Under the pieces are notes generated by a model, which was given only the letters and a program-made list of their open reading frames with translations, was not told the origin of the DNA and made no database searches. A DNA stretch of 46,375 bases, taken from contig ONXC01000019.1 in the NCBI GenBank assembly GCA_900321715.1, positions 1-46,375 on the forward strand, written 5' to 3'. Shown in pieces: positions 30,918 through 36,097 of this stretch. Made by a program: the position numbers and the translations under genes. This DNA is from an uncultured Bacteroidales bacterium (GTDB taxonomy: Bacteria; Bacteroidota; Bacteroidia; Bacteroidales; UBA932). Numbering within the stretch: the stretch's first letter is position 1; each line of letters opens with the position of its first letter.

Positions 30918-31847
30918 TTATTCTATTGAGTTCATGTCTATCAGGTTGTTAAGGAGGGCATACACCGTGAGGCCGGCAACGGTTTTGATGCCGGTCTTGC
31001 GGGTTATGTTCTTGCGGTGGGAAATGACGGTGTAGATGGAGATGTTGTAAAGATCGGCAATCTCCTTGTTGAGCATACCCTTGGCAACGGCCACAAGGAT
31101 TTCCTTTTCACGGGCGCTGAGCTCCCCGCCTTCTCCCCTGGGGGCATCCGACTCATCCTCCATCCGGCTCACAACGGGCACCAGGATGCCGTCTTCTATG
31201 AAGGTGTGGCGCTCCAGGTCACTCTCCAGGCTGTAGAGGTAGAAAAGCACCCTGAAGCAGTCCTGGGAGCTGCTCTGGGAGGGCTGATACATGGTGACCA
31301 GTTTCTTTAGGTCATCCAGTTTTTCCTCCACGTTGGAGTGGTTCTTCTCATATTCCCCAATGGTGTAGGGCTCCCTCTCACGGCTGTCAATCATAGCCTC
31401 TACATACGGGAAAACCGTCTTTTCCTCATAGTCAAAGTGACGCTCCAGCTCCTCCTTGTAATCCCCGAAGAACTTACGGATCACCTTCTTGTGCATATCG
31501 TCGCAGGGGGAGATCATTTCCTCAATGGCGGCGGCAAGGGCCGGCACCATTGTTTCCAGATAATAGGTGTGGGACAGACGCAGATAGCGGACAATATCCT
31601 CAAGGCAGGCTCCTTCCATCTGCTCCCTCGAAGGCCGATAACCATCAAAAGCGTAAACCTTGCAGATGATGAGGAAGGTTTCCGGGTCTATGCCCATGCC
31701 GTCACAGACCTCTTTCACCGTGGCTTCACCAAAGCCGTAACTCATCCCGAATCGGGAAAACACCCCAAGAATAGAAAAATTGACGTCCAGCAGGTCTGCC
31801 ATCTTCATGGCCGGACTGATGGACGTTATGGACACCTGAGGTTTCAT
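30918..31847 (-). CDS. Hemerythrin-domain regulator with C-terminal LuxR-type HTH
   Basis: 309 residues. An N-terminal region (about 1-85) resembles the DUF1858/ScdA-type domain; residues about 90-225 form a hemerythrin-like four-helix bundle with spaced His and Glu (SHTYYLE, RHFDYEEKTVFPY, KNHSNVEEKL, RHTFIEDGILVP), which could hold a di-iron centre sensing oxygen or nitric oxide. The C-terminus is a LuxR helix-turn-helix (LSAREKEILVAVAKGMLNKEIADLYNISIYTVISHRKNI). A -7 box TAATTTTG (31859-31852) lies 4 bases before the ATG. It is followed by apt after 3 bases. Fusion of an iron-redox sensor to a DNA-binding domain is clear; its targets, possibly this operon, are inferred. Confidence 0.85.
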   Translation of the reverse strand: MKPQVSITSISPAMKMADLLDVNFSILGVFSRFGMSYGFGEATVKEVCDGMGIDPETFLIICKVYAFDGYRPSREQMEGACLEDIVRYLRLSHTYYLETMVPALAAAIEEMISPCDDMHKKVIRKFFGDYKEELERHFDYEEKTVFPYVEAMIDSREREPYTIGEYEKNHSNVEEKLDDLKKLVTMYQPSQSSSQDCFRVLFYLYSLESDLERHTFIEDGILVPVVSRMEDESDAPRGEGGELSAREKEILVAVAKGMLNKEIADLYNISIYTVISHRKNITRKTGIKTVAGLTVYALLNNLIDMNSIE

Positions 31848-31898
31848 CTTACAAAATTAGAAAAAATTTGGATAGTCTGTGCCGATTTTTCCGGAAAT

Positions 31899-32125
31899 GT
31901 CGCAGGTCAGAGCGAGGGCCGTCGCAGGTGGCAGCACCGTGCGTCGCAGGTCAAGCAGTGATTCGTCGCAGGTGGCGGGGCAAAACGTCGCAGGTCTGCG
32001 TTTTTGGCGTCACCTGCGACGCAAATCGGCCACAGGAGCAAAAAAGCGTCGCAGGTCCAGCGTTTTTTGCAGACCTGCGACGAAGCAGACGGTCACCTGC
32101 GACGGAATGAGCCCGAACCTGCGAC
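31899..32125. repeat. GTCGCAGGT array A: 22-bp periodic arms around a double-hairpin core
   Basis: Copies of GTCGCAGGT start at 31899, 31921, 31943, 31965 and 31987 (period 22), followed by its reverse complement ACCTGCGAC at 32012, a forward copy at 32048 and reverse copies at 32073, 32095 and 32117 (period 22). Start-to-start spacings in the core are 25, 36 and 25. The 13-base spacers between arm copies differ. The core holds two hairpins with 9-10 bp stems and 16-base loops. It begins 40 bases upstream of the -7 box of the hemerythrin regulator and ends 23 bases from the transposase stop. Confidence 0.92.
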
Positions 32126-32148
32126 ACAGGGAGCTCCCGGCTGCGGCG

Positions 32149-33108
32149 CTATACCATCGGCACCATCTTTCCGGCCGATGTTTTTGCCCCCATTGAAGAG
32201 AGCAATCCGGCCACTACATCGCGGGGCATTCCCAGGCATCTTGAGAGCTGCGGTACCGTGGTCCTGTACGACCTGTACAAATATGGCAGGAGTCTAGCCT
32301 TTACCTCCGGGGTCATTTCGGGGATGGTTTTATGGTACCATTTATCGGCCAGTTGCTTTATCACGGCCAACATCTCGGTGTCTGTCTGAGAGTGGCGTCC
32401 GCTGCTTACCAGCATCTGCTGTATTTCCGGGACATTGACAGAGCCGATCGTTTTGAGAAAGAACGCCTGGTCATTGGAAAAAGCACTCTCCAGATAAGCA
32501 TAGTCGCAGGCGCTTGCGGGCTCTACACCGCCATCGGCATTTACGAGCCAGGGCACACCGGACAAATCTTCATGGGTATGGAAGACCGCTTCCCGTTCCC
32601 GCCGGCTCATATCGGCAACCCGACGCACGGCTTCCGGACATCGGCCATCAGCAAACATTCCCCGGTAGCCGGACCAGCGATAGTCCTCCACGCGCGAGCC
32701 GGCGTCTATTGCGTTACGGGGAATATACGCCAGCGCATTACGGACGTACCAGTCAGAATCCAGATACTTCACGCTTATATCCGAACGGGCCAGGACAGCC
32801 TTCTCCTTATATTTCCAACTCAAGTATTGGGAATGGCGCTTTGTTATCAGGGAAGCCGTATTGAAGGCCGATTCAATACTCTCTGCCAGCAAGGAGCAGT
32901 GCCCGTGATTAGACATTGCTATTGCAATTATTACAATGCAATTAGCCATATGGGCCGATACATAAAAGCACTTTTCAAGATGGTCATAGTCTTCATCGTC
33001 CTTGCATAGCAGAGCAGTCTCCATCCCCTCCAGACTTATATGAAATGGAAACACTTTGCACACTTTACCGTCAGGCAAAGTGCGCGTTACGATTCGCTGG
33101 AATGCCAT
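32149..33108 (-). CDS. REP-associated (Y1/HUH-like) transposase family protein
   Basis: 319 residues. The order of motifs matches REP-associated tyrosine transposases: an initial FHISLEG strand, a DDEDYDHLEKCF helix, the metal-binding AMSNHGHCSLLAES (His-Gly-His where most have MPNHVHLL), ITKRHSQYLSWKY, and the tyrosine helix NALAYIPRNAIDAGSRVEDYRWSGYRGMF (compare YIHxNPVRAG ... YPWSSYR). The last 150 residues are an added region, including a possible helix-turn-helix (TVPQLSRCLGMPRDVVAGLLSSMG). Such enzymes cut single-stranded hairpins in REP elements. Here it lies between two repeat arrays of opposite orientation and follows a partner gene by 2 bases. Family is likely; activity is not proven since the middle residue of the HUH motif is Gly. 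Confidence 0.8.
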   Translation of the reverse strand: MAFQRIVTRTLPDGKVCKVFPFHISLEGMETALLCKDDEDYDHLEKCFYVSAHMANCIVIIAIAMSNHGHCSLLAESIESAFNTASLITKRHSQYLSWKYKEKAVLARSDISVKYLDSDWYVRNALAYIPRNAIDAGSRVEDYRWSGYRGMFADGRCPEAVRRVADMSRREREAVFHTHEDLSGVPWLVNADGGVEPASACDYAYLESAFSNDQAFFLKTIGSVNVPEIQQMLVSSGRHSQTDTEMLAVIKQLADKWYHKTIPEMTPEVKARLLPYLYRSYRTTVPQLSRCLGMPRDVVAGLLSSMGAKTSAGKMVPMV

Positions 33109-33110
33109 AG

Positions 33111-33536
33111 TCAGTTCACCGGCTTGCCGATATCCGAGAATGACAACCCCATAGGGAAGACCCCGCTGATCGGACGGATTATATTTGACGGGTCAAAACC
33201 ATAAGGCTTCTTCAGCGAAGAGGAATACTTCTCATAATGAGGAATGAAACTGAACATCATTGTACTCCATAGTTGCTCGGCATTGTCGTAAGGCTCGGCA
33301 CAGGAGATAATCTCACCCATTGACAGATAGCGGATAGCCTTGCTGACATTCAGGTTGTGATCCCTCCATATTGCATTCACAAGCCCGCGCATCACCTGCC
33401 TGTACCTCTGGTCTACGAGTTTTGCCTCCTCATCTAAATCCATAGGAGGCGATTCCAGGGAGTCGGAAAACTCAAAATCAGTACTGAACAGCATCTCGCC
33501 GTTGTCGTCCACCAAGACTTCCAAAAACTTTTTCAT
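33111..33536 (-). CDS. Unknown protein encoded in one operon with the REP transposase
   Basis: 141 residues, starting MKKFLEVLVDDNGEML, no signal peptide or membrane helix. The N-terminal third is acidic (SDSLESPPMDLDEEAKLVD), the middle forms helices (RYRQVMRGLVNAIWRDHNLNVSKAIRYLSMGEIIS), and the end is proline- and glycine-rich. I do not recognise a family. The stop is 2 bases before the transposase start and a good promoter lies 100 bases upstream, so it is the first gene of a two-gene unit flanked by arrays A and B. It could be a DNA-binding or regulatory partner; this rests on position only. Confidence 0.7.
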   Translation of the reverse strand: MKKFLEVLVDDNGEMLFSTDFEFSDSLESPPMDLDEEAKLVDQRYRQVMRGLVNAIWRDHNLNVSKAIRYLSMGEIISCAEPYDNAEQLWSTMMFSFIPHYEKYSSSLKKPYGFDPSNIIRPISGVFPMGLSFSDIGKPVN

Positions 33537-33633
33537 AACAGTAATAATTATATGGTTTATATGATTGTGCCCGGCCTGGCAGGATTGCCTTGAAGCACCT
33601 GGATTGCAAGATTATTTGGGGGCTGCCCGATTG

Positions 33634-33665
33634 CAAACATATGTTATTTAATGTCCCGCAGCAAG
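33634..33665 (-). promoter_or_regulatory. Promoter of the transposase operon
   Basis: On the minus strand CTTG (33665-33662) and TATGTTTG (33641-33634) are separated by 20 bases. Transcription from near 33627 would give a leader of about 90 bases, longer than most in this window. Confidence 0.6.
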
Positions 33666-33702
33666 ACGCCGATGCAGATTTTTACGTTTTTTGTGAATAA
33701 TG

Positions 33703-33736
33703 TGTTGTTTCACGGGTATAAACACCTGAAACAACA
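33703..33736. repeat. Inverted repeat between the transposase promoter and array B
   Basis: TGTTGTTTCACGGGT (33703-33717) and ACACCTGAAACAACA (33722-33736) pair over 15 positions with two mismatches and a 4-base loop; the outer 10 bp are perfect. No gene ends here. It could be an operator or a transposon end. The rest of the 33537-33852 gap shows nothing else apart from the promoter and a C/G-rich tract at 33823-33850. Confidence 0.55.
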
Positions 33737-33852
33737 AACAAAGTATGAACGCCCACTGATTTTTTTGTGTTGTATTAGCCTCCCTCCAAGGCTTATGGCC
33801 GATGGCTCTTGAAGATAATTGCCCCCTGGGGGGCTGGCGGGCGGGGCGAAGT

Positions 33853-34054
33853 GTCGCAGGTGACGGGGCGAAGTGTCGCAGGACGGACGGGGTGTCGCAG
33901 GTGACGGGGCAAAGTGTTGCAGGTCTGCAAAAAACGACGGACCTGCGACAGTATTTTGCTTCTGTGGCCGATTTGCGTCGCAGGTGACACCAAAAACGCA
34001 GACCTGCGACGGTTTATCGAAGGACCTGCGACGTGGAGTGATGAGACCTGCAAC
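33853..34054. repeat. GTCGCAGGT array B, inverted relative to array A
   Basis: Forward copies start at 33853, 33875 (one mismatch), 33894 and 33916 (one mismatch), then ACCTGCGAC at 33941, forward at 33977, and reverse copies at 34002, 34024 and 34046 (one mismatch). Spacings are 22, 19, 22 then 25, 36, 25 then 22, 22. The reverse complement of the core is nearly identical to the core of array A, including the same ATCGGCCACAG linker. Left-arm spacers resemble each other (GACGGGGCGAAGT type). The last copy ends 8 bases before the queH -7 box (34063-34070). Confidence 0.92.
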
Positions 34055-34074
34055 GAATTTATTATCTTTGTACC

Positions 34075-34677
34075 GTGAAAAAGATATTTCAGATAGAAGT
34101 TCCGGGAGGCAGCGGGAAGATCCTTCTTCACGCCTGCTGCGCTCCGTGCTCCGGGGCCATTGTGGAATACCTGGTAAAGCACGGCGTGAGGCCCGTAATC
34201 TTCTTCTCAAACTCCAACATCACCCCTTTTGACGAGTACAGTCACAGGCTTAACGAATGCATCCGCTACGCCAGGGAGTTCGGCCTTAAGGTGGTTGAGG
34301 ATAACTATGATCACGATTCCTGGCTCACCTGCGCCGCCGGGTTGGAGACAGAGCCGGAACGTGGTGCACGCTGTCTGGAGTGCTTCAAACACAGACTCCT
34401 GAGAGCAGCGCAGTATGCTGCGGCAAATGGTTTTGATGTGCTCACAACCACCCTGGCATCTTCCCGTTGGAAGAGCCTGGAGCAGGTGAACGAGGCCGGC
34501 ACATGGGCCTGCGCTCAGGTAAGCGGCGTGACGTGGTGGGGCCAGAATTGGAGAAAAGGCGGCCTCCAGGACCGCCGTAATGAAATTATCAGGGAGCAGA
34601 ACTTCTACAATCAGCTGTTCTGCGGCTGCGAGTTTTCTCAGAGAACAGGTTCTGCAGAGCCGTCGGAGGCTTTGTAG
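34075..34677 (+). CDS. queH: Epoxyqueuosine reductase QueH
   Basis: QueH reduces epoxyqueuosine to queuosine in tRNA, the last step of the modification, replacing QueG. 200 residues with the family cysteine motifs: HACCAPCS (Cys21, Cys22, Cys25), GARCLECF, and FYNQLFCGCEFS near the end, which bind an iron-sulfur cluster and metal. It starts with GTG at 34075; a -7 box TATCTTTG (34063-34070) ends 4 bases before it, so the mRNA is probably leaderless. The 3' end overlaps the convergent gene at 34638 by 40 bases. Array B abuts its promoter. Confidence 0.93.
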   Translation: MKKIFQIEVPGGSGKILLHACCAPCSGAIVEYLVKHGVRPVIFFSNSNITPFDEYSHRLNECIRYAREFGLKVVEDNYDHDSWLTCAAGLETEPERGARCLECFKHRLLRAAQYAAANGFDVLTTTLASSRWKSLEQVNEAGTWACAQVSGVTWWGQNWRKGGLQDRRNEIIREQNFYNQLFCGCEFSQRTGSAEPSEAL

Positions 34678-35141
34678 TCAAACTTGGAGCCGTGCCAGGT
34701 CCAGGAGAGCAGGGCGCTGCCGCTGCGGATGGAAAGGACCTGACGGAACACACGGATCTCAGTTGCATCCGGAGATCCAACCTTGCCGGCAAGCTTCCAT
34801 TCATCACCATCCAGAGTATACACATTGGCATAAACGCCGCCATCCCTGCGCCTTGCAACCACAAGGTCCGGAGCGCGGTTTCCGGTGAAATCATGAATGC
34901 CGATAACAGTGTCTCCCTCCCCGGATTCCAAGTCTGTGCCATTTACAGAAACGGCCCCGGAAGCCAGCGAGGCCTTGAAACTGGCCTTGTCAATAGAGAA
35001 GTCAAGCGTTCCGCTTTCACCAAAGAAATAGCTCTCAAGACCCACGATAAAGGTCTTGGACTCATTGTCTGAATAAGTACGCATTTGGGCATAGGCCGTT
35101 AGCCCGGCCAGAAGGCATATTATGGTTAGTAGTCTTTTCAT
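34638..35141 (-). CDS. Secreted FG-GAP-like protein of unknown function
   Basis: About 167 residues starting at MKRLLTIICL with a signal peptide ending TAYAQ. A central segment (GDTVIGIHDFTGNRAPDLVVARRRDGGVYANVYTLDG) resembles one FG-GAP/VCBS calcium-binding propeller repeat, but a single repeat is too little for a full propeller. No enzyme motif is seen. Its last 40 bases overlap the 3' end of queH on the other strand, so the two transcripts are antisense at their ends. Confidence 0.65.
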   Translation of the reverse strand: MKRLLTIICLLAGLTAYAQMRTYSDNESKTFIVGLESYFFGESGTLDFSIDKASFKASLASGAVSVNGTDLESGEGDTVIGIHDFTGNRAPDLVVARRRDGGVYANVYTLDGDEWKLAGKVGSPDATEIRVFRQVLSIRSGSALLSWTWHGSKFDYKASDGSAEPVL

Positions 35142-35147
35142 TAACTG

Positions 35148-35177
35148 CAAATATACACATTTTACGCGTTATGGCAA
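35148..35177 (-). promoter_or_regulatory. Promoter of the FG-GAP-like gene
   Basis: On the minus strand TTG (35177-35175) and TATATTTG (35155-35148) are separated by 19 bases. The start codon follows the -7 box by 6 bases, again giving almost no leader. Array C begins 46 bases upstream of the -7 box. Confidence 0.6.
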
Positions 35178-35200
35178 TACCCCCGTTCCAGATATGGCAC

Positions 35201-35383
35201 GTCGCAGGTCCGGGCACGGAACGTCGCAGGTCTGCGTTTTTGGCGTCACCTGCGACGCAAATCGGCCACAGGAGAAAAAAAGTGTCGCAGGTCCGGCAAA
35301 TTTTGCAGACCTGCGACGAAAACGCTTGTGACCCGCGACGCAAAAGGGCAGGACCCGCAACAAAAAAGTGCTGGACCCGCGAC
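35201..35383. repeat. GTCGCAGGT array C, same orientation as array A
   Basis: Forward copies start at 35201 and 35223, ACCTGCGAC at 35248, forward at 35284, reverse at 35309, then degenerate copies ACCCGCGAC (35331), ACCCGCAAC (35353) and ACCCGCGAC (35375). Spacings are 22, 25, 36, 25, 22, 22, 22. The core is almost identical to that of A, including a shared first loop. The outermost right copies all carry the same T-to-C change, so they look as if they multiplied after that change. It ends 9 bases from the stop of the barrel gene. Confidence 0.92.
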
Positions 35384-35392
35384 GCTGATGGC

Positions 35393-36097
35393 TTAGAAGG
35401 AGAACCCTATTCCAACCTTGATCTGGGAGCGGGAGGTGCTTGAACCACTCACCTTGGAGAAGTTGAGCAAGCTGTGATCATAGCCGATGATAACCTGAAG
35501 GTCACCAGCCTGGATGCCCACGCCACCGCCGAGGTAGATGTTGAAAGGATTGGAGATACCGCCCTCGTTCAGGGTGACAACTTCCTTCTTATCCGAGCCG
35601 TACACTTTTCCGTCAAAGTAGTTCAAAGTGTATTTTCCGGTAGATTGGACAAAGGTGCCGATTCCGGCAGAGGCTTCATAGGATCCCTTGCTGCTGAACG
35701 CAATCTGGAAAACAGGGCCGCCATAAACGAAGAGATTGACATCCCGGCCCAACTCGAATGTATAATTCAGGTTGATGGGGACATTGAAGGCAAATTCCCT
35801 GTAGGTTTCCCTTTCGTTCTTAAAGGTACCATAAATGGCCTCACCGTTGTTCCTTCTGTCAAAAAGGGTGCTGAAATACACTCCGGGAGCGACGCCAAGA
35901 CCGGCAACCAGATTGAGGTTGTACTGGCCACCGAGGTAAAGACCATTGAGGTTGGTCTTGTCGTCAGGATCTCCGTTTGTGTATTTTGTTATTTCAGTTG
36001 AGTTGAGCCAGCCTGCACCAAACGAGAGCTGGGCATGAGCCTGGGTTCCAAGAAGCAGTGCCGCAGCGCTGAAAACAATAGCAAATACTTTCTTCAT
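35393..36097 (-). CDS. Outer membrane beta-barrel protein, tandem paralog a
   Basis: 234 residues with a signal peptide (ALLLGTQAHAQ). Strands typical of an OmpX/PorT-like barrel (LNGLYLGGQYNLNLVAGLGVAPGVYF, FNVPINLNYTFELGRDVNLFVYGGPVFQIAF) end in SQIKVGIGFSF with terminal Phe. It is a clear paralog of the next gene upstream (36169-36867): the N-terminal LSFGAGWLNSTE, the YNLxLVxGLGVAPG and the IIGYDHSLLNFSK segments agree. A terminator-like hairpin separates the two. Function unknown. Confidence 0.8.
   Translation of the reverse strand: MKKVFAIVFSAAALLLGTQAHAQLSFGAGWLNSTEITKYTNGDPDDKTNLNGLYLGGQYNLNLVAGLGVAPGVYFSTLFDRRNNGEAIYGTFKNERETYREFAFNVPINLNYTFELGRDVNLFVYGGPVFQIAFSSKGSYEASAGIGTFVQSTGKYTLNYFDGKVYGSDKKEVVTLNEGGISNPFNIYLGGGVGIQAGDLQVIIGYDHSLLNFSKVSGSSTSRSQIKVGIGFSF

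Follow-up and report, generated by a model that had tools for sequence, protein, structure and literature searches.

RAYT/TnpA_REP transposases and the REP and REPIN sequences that accompany them are the closest described relatives of the elements analysed here. In such a unit, or REPtron, the gene for a protein with a Y1 HuH-type fold (as in E. coli TnpA_REP, PDB 4ER8) stands between palindromic repeats of its own family, which also occur elsewhere in the genome, each transposase having one repeat family, and a REPIN joins two inverted hairpins into a dispersed element. RAYTs flanked by their own repeats are already in print (PMC6006769), and the RAYT-repeat pairs of E. coli, Stenotrophomonas and Marinomonas have been approached by systematic evolution of ligands by exponential enrichment (SELEX; PMC8266576), as far as the available parts of these two papers describe. 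At issue is how a RAYT chooses its own repeats, and how several pairs can coexist in one genome without crossing. Here we analyse three repeat arrays, A, B and C, and the RAYT gene lying between A and B, in a 46,375-nucleotide stretch of DNA from an uncultured Bacteroidales bacterium (the window; contig ONXC01000019.1, assembly GCA_900321715.1). The arrays are probably REPIN-like elements of a RAYT module, in which the RAYT would recognise a 9-mer of the form G-N4-AGGT (N4 being four variable bases) and tandem arms would add further duplex sites. In our assessment the pairing is real, widespread and so far undecoded, and the new points are a proposed residue-to-base code and the phased arms.

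All of the traits listed above for REPtrons and REPINs recur at this locus, including a core of two inverted hairpins in which successive 9-mers start 25, 36 and 25 bases apart; this core is complete in 15 of the 17 array loci inspected in the same genome and partial in two (L047, L003). Unlike canonical REPs and REPINs, the repeats have no GT[AG]G foot on the 5′ side and carry an invariant AGGT inside the stem of their centre-aligned consensuses; they resemble REPINs in how they work, but the missing foot sets them apart from canonical REPs. Other departures from the REPtron are the tandem 22-bp arms, a long C-terminal region, a companion gene and restriction to one genus, as far as searched. 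Quentin et al. 2018 (PMC6006769) describe “atypical secondary structures”, which recur in the genome, beside Bacteroidetes RAYTs of subclass 2.6 (RAYT group 5). In the available part of that paper the likeness extends to the host group and to flanking structures with genomic copies and, compared by description only, those structures may overlap with the present repeats. The proteins differ: the subclass 2.6 features given there (NH[LIV]H, WQ, YIH[QN]NP and about 179 aa) were not found here, where we see NHxH with x mostly small, no WQ, Y[IV]PRN and about 300-320 aa, and the window RAYT matches none of the TnpA_REP subclasses of that paper whose motifs were compared. A preliminary description of this DNA had called the arrays undescribed, which holds for the 22-bp arm architecture, of which no earlier description was found in the literature searched, but not for the flanking of a RAYT by its own repeats.

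TIRYT/TIRtron units (Di Nocera et al. 2013, PMC3733652) and subclass 2.1 likewise have a transposase flanked by inverted repeats, and the putative helix-turn-helix of the present RAYT may correspond to their C-terminal one; in contrast to the G-N4-AGGT hairpin pairs seen here, the terminal repeats of TIRYTs share GGGGWSAS, and subclass 2.1 is reported without REP-like repeats. Iterons, with which the arms had been compared, share direct repeats near 22 bp on one helix face but not the inverted two-sided layout or the dispersed copies. The period and the one-face likeness stand as an analogy only: no replication initiator was noticed among the window open reading frames, and no origin search was made. 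A CRISPR (clustered regularly interspaced short palindromic repeats) locus, with uniform direct repeats, acquired spacers and cas genes, was set aside in view of the inverted two-sided arrays and 9-bp repeats.

A repeat grammar within one genus

Matches at E 1e-5 were found in 31 of 61 genomes, all from the genus of the window; 24 genomes of other families in the order gave no match. A close homologue of the RAYT designated C13 is present in 87 of 300 genomes of the genus, and a profile search matched 3 of 393 genomes of the order, all from the same genus (1 of 206 genera). The records of the relatives are mostly titled as ruminant-gut Bacteroidales or Bacteroidia assemblies, and the host of the arrays is a ruminant gut bacterium; Prevotellaceae, Fibrobacter and Lachnospiraceae each appear as the label of a single contig, and the latter two contigs are short and perhaps misbinned.

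Our family survey covers 80 of the 158 relatives found in named genomes. A motif-free search for groups of similar hairpins, extending 1.5 kb to each side of the 80 RAYTs, returned two or more similar hairpins beside the RAYT at 72 of 80 loci and in 0 of 80 shuffles, which, like those used for copy spacings, keep base composition only. When these 72 loci are aligned on hairpin centres, AGGT falls in one register in 67, and is preceded by four variable bases and, in 66 of the 67, a G; the resulting 9-mer occurs in 20 versions, with 19 of N4. Its copies are convergent at 25 or 26 bases (204 pairs), divergent at 36 or 37 (69) or 49 (29), and direct at 22 (151), and full cores stand on both sides of the RAYT at 41 of 67 loci, on one side at 24 and on neither at 2. 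Arms are present at 34 of the 67: where the code is of the CAGGT kind they occur at 29 of 32 loci, elsewhere at 5 of 35. The 22-bp step and side-specific orientation are kept in unlike codes.

RAYT residues that predict the repeat version

The version of N4 tracks the RAYT across 65 coded loci, differing between RAYTs within one genome, and N4 distance grows with RAYT distance (Mantel r 0.58, 0/2000, n=65; L115-L117, near copies of the window protein, were excluded here and from the mutual-information tests). Among the 65 proteins, a G at base 3 of N4 comes with Glu173 (35/35), a C with Arg or Lys173 (24/27) and an A with Ala or Ile (3/3), while a C at base 4 comes with His or Arg179 (30/30), an A with Gly or Ala (32/32) and a G with Cys (3/3). 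At base 2, C accompanies Arg169 in all 23 cases and G accompanies Lys169 in 23 of 27. The effective sequence number is only ∼24, and for this reason the mutual-information scan was not trusted alone and tree and held-out tests were added. As a control for ancestry, a tree was built without columns 164-182 (80 proteins, 24 9-mer versions, 276 columns scored). The best column for base 1 was 169 (p 3.7e-8), where 10 of 14 code changes shared their branch with a residue change; the equivalent results were column 173 for base 3 (p 7.3e-9; 9/12) and column 179 for base 4 (p 1.4e-6; 4/4).

The held-out test began with 37 loci, of which we dropped five with fewer than two hairpins, four without an in-register AGGT (L310, L311 and L315, of a self-palindromic GGACC class, and L337, which reads ACGGT) and nine identical to the training set. 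This left 19 rows, or 16 distinct ones after merging L320 with L105, L323 with L103 and L329 with L104. In these proteins, at 57-91% identity, base 4 was predicted correctly for 16 of 16 distinct RAYTs and base 3 for 13 of the 13 called, three with Gly173 being uncalled; a rule assigning A to Leu173 was added after L106 had been inspected, and the base 3 score without it is 11/11.

Duplex DNA is commonly contacted by Glu opposite C, by Arg opposite G and by small residues opposite T; the residue-base pairs observed here match such contacts, and a base-pair reading appears to fit. Since a few RAYT residues predict the version of the adjoining repeat, the RAYT probably recognises its repeats base by base. 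We lean, with less assurance, towards a more specific proposal: that in this family of domesticated HuH transposases residues 169-179 would constitute a near one-to-one code for N4 beside the fixed AGGT, in which Glu173 specifies G, Arg/Lys173 C and small or aliphatic residues at 173 A at base 3, His/Arg179 specifies C, Gly/Ala179 A and Cys179 G at base 4, and residue 169 governs bases 1-2, and that the same duplex reader would dock on the 22-bp-phased arms as an adjustable loading array. If true, this would provide a decodable, perhaps re-targetable repeat-transposase pair with ∼20 specificities within one genus. The natural variation among these ∼20 pairs points to three residues, and the predictions can be checked on new genomes.

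Dispersal and arm turnover

Every 9-mer start listed for A, B and C in the preliminary description is present, six of them with one mismatch (33875, 33916, 34046, 35331, 35375) or two (35353), as are its core spacings in all three arrays, its 22-bp arm step with a sole exception of 19 in B, and its more degenerate outer copies in C. Within the window, 42 matches with at most one mismatch compare with 9.1 expected (sd 3.0; maximum of 100 shuffles 17). All three arrays are intergenic. In this genome every core consists of two hairpins, GTCGCAGGT-16-ACCTGCGAC, separated by a 27-base spacer, with forward copies only in left arms and inverted copies only in right arms; the core is indeed REPIN-like, and the 22-bp arms that a REPIN had been said to leave unexplained are real. 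ATCGGCC recurs in the inter-hairpin spacer; with GGCCGAT it forms the commonest 6-mer family of such spacers across unlike codes (e.g. window 32021-32047), TCGGCC lies inside 26 of 117 full cores, and the family recurs in flanks too.

The genome is a 2.04-Mb draft in 29 contigs, 81% complete. In it GTCGCAGGT-N13-GTCGCAGGT (at most two mismatches) occurs 35+31 times against 0 for the reversed control, and the core of array A, used as a BLAST query, finds 15 full-length copies, each with 22-bp arms, on several contigs; the sister-species genomes G061, G062 and G063 hold 10, 14 and 12 arrays. Random spacing, confinement to three copies and absence from relatives, each of which had been raised as a possible objection, are therefore refuted, and A, B and C are each a copy of a single dispersed element.

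An orthologously placed array exists in at least one of the three sister species for 11 of the 15 arrays, giving 19 comparisons. Arm numbers, counted in steps of 22 with one missing unit allowed (array B is undercounted because of its 19-bp step), agree for both arms in 4 comparisons and differ in 15, and copy number therefore varies between relatives. Identity between orthologues is 669/684 for core 9-mers and 1010/1121 for core spacers, and 594/639 (93%) for arm 9-mers against 647/923 (70%) for arm spacers, the arm 9-mer value being inflated because these 9-mers are defined by at most two mismatches. Judging from these alignments and from the likeness of neighbouring units (see below), the arms turn over by tandem duplication with the 9-mer retained. 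Taken with arms that seem not to be built to pair lengthwise (see below), the tandem turnover and the kept 9-mer favour duplex binding sites two helical turns apart. The one-face duplex-binding protein suggested previously fits this pattern of conserved 9-mers and far less conserved spacers, together with unequal arm numbers; of the earlier interpretation as a whole, layout and arm turnover stand, whereas the RAYT gene between A and B and the many N4 versions of the 9-mer had been overlooked. The arms would represent a second, duplex-type set of sites, and in the orthologous arrays, where arms turn over and cores stay, repeat growth is seen directly.

Alternative explanations

Several other readings of these data must be weighed. 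Only the core may be functional, with the arms as neutral by-products of slippage beside a hairpin: adjacent units within an arm are alike (0.56 vs 0.37 for random units), arms are missing from about half of the loci, and their number turns over. However, the better conservation of arm 9-mers than arm spacers, even if biased by the two-mismatch rule, and the retention of step and orientation across unlike codes make neutrality unlikely, though still the most credible of the alternatives. The arms might instead pair, left copies with right, to turn the whole array into a long single-stranded DNA or RNA hairpin, and array A as single-stranded DNA folds with z = -7.0 against 200 shuffles, its left arm pairing with its right. 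Yet 10 of the 15 arrays have more units in one arm than in the other, so the arms are not simply pairing partners, and spacer likeness between the two sides of an array (0.32) does not exceed that between arrays (0.39), so that only the 9-mers could pair. In addition, no Rfam family reaches the gathering threshold in 31500-35700 (0 matches), on which basis a known RNA family was also set aside. We regard arm pairing as improbable. An association between residues and bases could also reflect shared ancestry and not recognition, as close RAYTs have both code and residues in common and the effective sequence number is small. Against this, changes coincide on branches of a tree built without the columns concerned, the three residues span no more than 11 positions and rank top of 276 columns for bases 1, 3 and 4, and held-out proteins fit, making ancestry alone a shade less probable again than pairing. 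Finally, the arrays could be iteron-like or operator sites of another host protein with the RAYT merely nearby, which would suit intergenic 22-bp direct repeats at about two helical turns and the end of array B ∼20 bp before queH. This is the least probable reading of all, given that the 9-mer version tracks the RAYT and differs between RAYTs of one genome, that three RAYT residues co-change with it, and that the companion accompanies the RAYT in many cases, as against the three sister species alone for queH, hhe and orf170, the outer neighbours.

Some observations also weigh against the RAYT-based explanation that we prefer. Base 2 is weakly explained, its best column being 102 (p 1.0e-4) with 169 second (2.4e-4); by reconstruction, three base-3 changes from C to G occur without change at 173, and one change from E to L at 173 stands alongside C to A at base 3; and Gly173 and Asp173 co-occur with C, where no simple contact fits. 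No hairpin group (fewer than two hairpins) was found at 8 of 80 loci and no in-register AGGT at 5 of 72. As arms are not general, they cannot be needed by the family, and the inflated arm 9-mer identity lessens the case for their conservation. The canonical REP marks (GT[AG]G foot, WQ/WE motif) are missing, no Y1 match was returned when the window RAYT was scanned directly against Pfam and NCBIfam, and binding, cleavage and movement are predicted from sequence and modelled structure.

With these reservations, we propose that the arrays are non-autonomous elements of a RAYT module of one Bacteroidales genus, as far as searched, which would comprise companion and RAYT with an array on each side and further copies scattered through the genome. 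The RAYT would recognise G-N4-AGGT, residues 169-179 reading N4 and other, conserved residues presumably reading AGGT. The two core hairpins would be the single-strand substrate of the HuH/tyrosine nuclease, and the arms, extra 9-mer copies at about two helical turns, would load several RAYT molecules on one duplex face, growing and shrinking via tandem duplication and loss.

The RAYT and its companion

Arrays A and B flank a two-gene module of a 319-aa RAYT and a 141-aa companion, ORF141 (Table 1). We place the RAYT in the RAYT/TnpA_REP superfamily because of its fold, its catalytic residues and its cognate flanking repeats with dispersed copies. Its closest fold is 4ER8, with the HuH/Y1 catalytic fold of the superfamily; S66, H68 and H70 are invariant among 47 aligned proteins and N67 is conserved in at least 90%, and a 44%-identical paralogue exceeds the PF01797 cut-off. 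The bulky hydrophobic residue typical of the superfamily between the two histidines is absent, position 69 being Gly here and Gly, Cys, Ser, Ala, Val or Phe in relatives. Helices are predicted over 267-311, with no helix-turn-helix family match above cut-off. By sequence, the RAYT is under strong constraint.

Table 1. Coordinates of the arrays, genes and protein elements in the window.
Feature	Position	Strand	Description	Basis
Array A	31899..32125	+	arms and two-hairpin core	9-mer positions, genome-wide array comparison
Array A left arm	31899-31986		4 direct 22-bp units	
Array A core	31987-32081		two hairpins	
Array A right arm	32082-32125		2 inverted units	
Array B	33853..34054	-	opposite orientation to A; one 19-bp step, left arm	
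Array B core	33916-34010			
Array C	35201..35383	+	orientation as A; outer right units degenerate	
Array C core	35223-35317			
RAYT/TnpA_REP-like, 319 aa	32149..33108	-	Y1 HuH-type catalytic region and C-terminal helical region	
HuH-like motif S66-N67-H68-x-H70	32899..32913	-		alignment of 47 proteins
Y128, presumed catalytic tyrosine (Y-[IV]-P-R-N)	32725..32727	-	invariant in 47 aligned	role presumed from family
Residues 169-179, proposed N4 reading element	32572..32604	-		association, held-out and tree tests
Residues 283-311, C-terminal helices	32176..32262	-	putative helix-turn-helix; predicted helices 285-292, 296-311	likeness by eye
Companion (ORF141), 141 aa	33111..33536	-	two bases upstream of RAYT; modelled beta-hairpin and three helices	

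Scans of both proteins with Pfam, NCBIfam and PADLOC returned nothing usable, and the companion model found no match in the PDB (best Foldseek E 2.4, none ≤0.001). The ratio of nonsynonymous to synonymous substitution rates (dN/dS) of ORF141 is 0.019-0.080, pointing to constraint; a queH comparison with L115 was out of frame and was left out. Relatives of ORF141 lie directly upstream of the RAYT at 34 of 80 loci by tblastn. By sequence pattern, companions of three kinds occur at 59 of 80 (26 ORF141-like, 25 of 117 aa and 8 HRDC), or at 64 with five further loci from tblastn, and an HRDC domain was confirmed in five of five companions tested (E 7e-16 to 2e-18). Loci with the GTCGC code have six ORF141-like and three HRDC companions; as the kind of companion does not track N4, a role in specificity is unlikely. 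In RecQ helicases and RNase D the HRDC domain is a nucleic acid-binding module, and by analogy the companion may help in strand handling. A PADLOC match of one HRDC companion to the defence protein DpdF was rejected, as it reflects the HRDC domain.

The outermost copy of array B directly precedes TATCTTTG (window 34060-34075, at the start of queH), which resembles the Bacteroidetes -7 promoter element; the arms of array B could touch the queH promoter.

Genomic surroundings of the arrays

Four arrays have no intact counterpart in sister species where the flanks can be traced, and may have been gained here or lost from the sister genomes. At C16:113.3k the sisters have 245-283 bp of other DNA; C16:41.0k has no intact sister counterpart; C10:134k closes off, on the right, a 5-kb stretch that the sisters lack; and at C16:3.2k (L235 426-620) G062 has a single exact copy of the 9-mer GTCGCAGGT beside another hairpin repeat, based on GCCGTGTTG/CAACACGGC, which gives the impression of an insertion site shared by two repeat families. 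A stretch of ∼5 kb absent from sisters (L308 7063-12272), with a helicase-like gene and others, ends beside a full array.

Four segments are inverted relative to at least one sister species: L244 1711-2787 (1.08 kb), L263 2940-4081 (1.14 kb), L262 2982-5680 (2.70 kb) and L307 5607-7662 (2.06 kb). Each has one breakpoint ∼0-28 bp from an array, although misassembly is possible and we propose no part for the arrays in inversion; the first three carry pheS, a symporter gene and surE-lpxB. A half array lies 40 bp past a tRNA-Leu gene (L308 3941-4094) and a full array ∼40 bp past a tRNA-Glu gene (L262 2629-2743). A 77-bp stretch starting at the first base after an array (L309 3950-4026) is 100% identical in three sister species, and ARAGORN found no tRNA in it.

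Distant RAYT-like genes (∼25% identity) of the same genus have other flanking repeats (L109 2685-4000, L110 2748-2904, L108 2681-3860), which take the form of tandem arrays of 51 and 52 bp or an inverted pair. A 14-bp tandem repeat with CAGGGGTAG lies at a contig end (L104 6325-6444).

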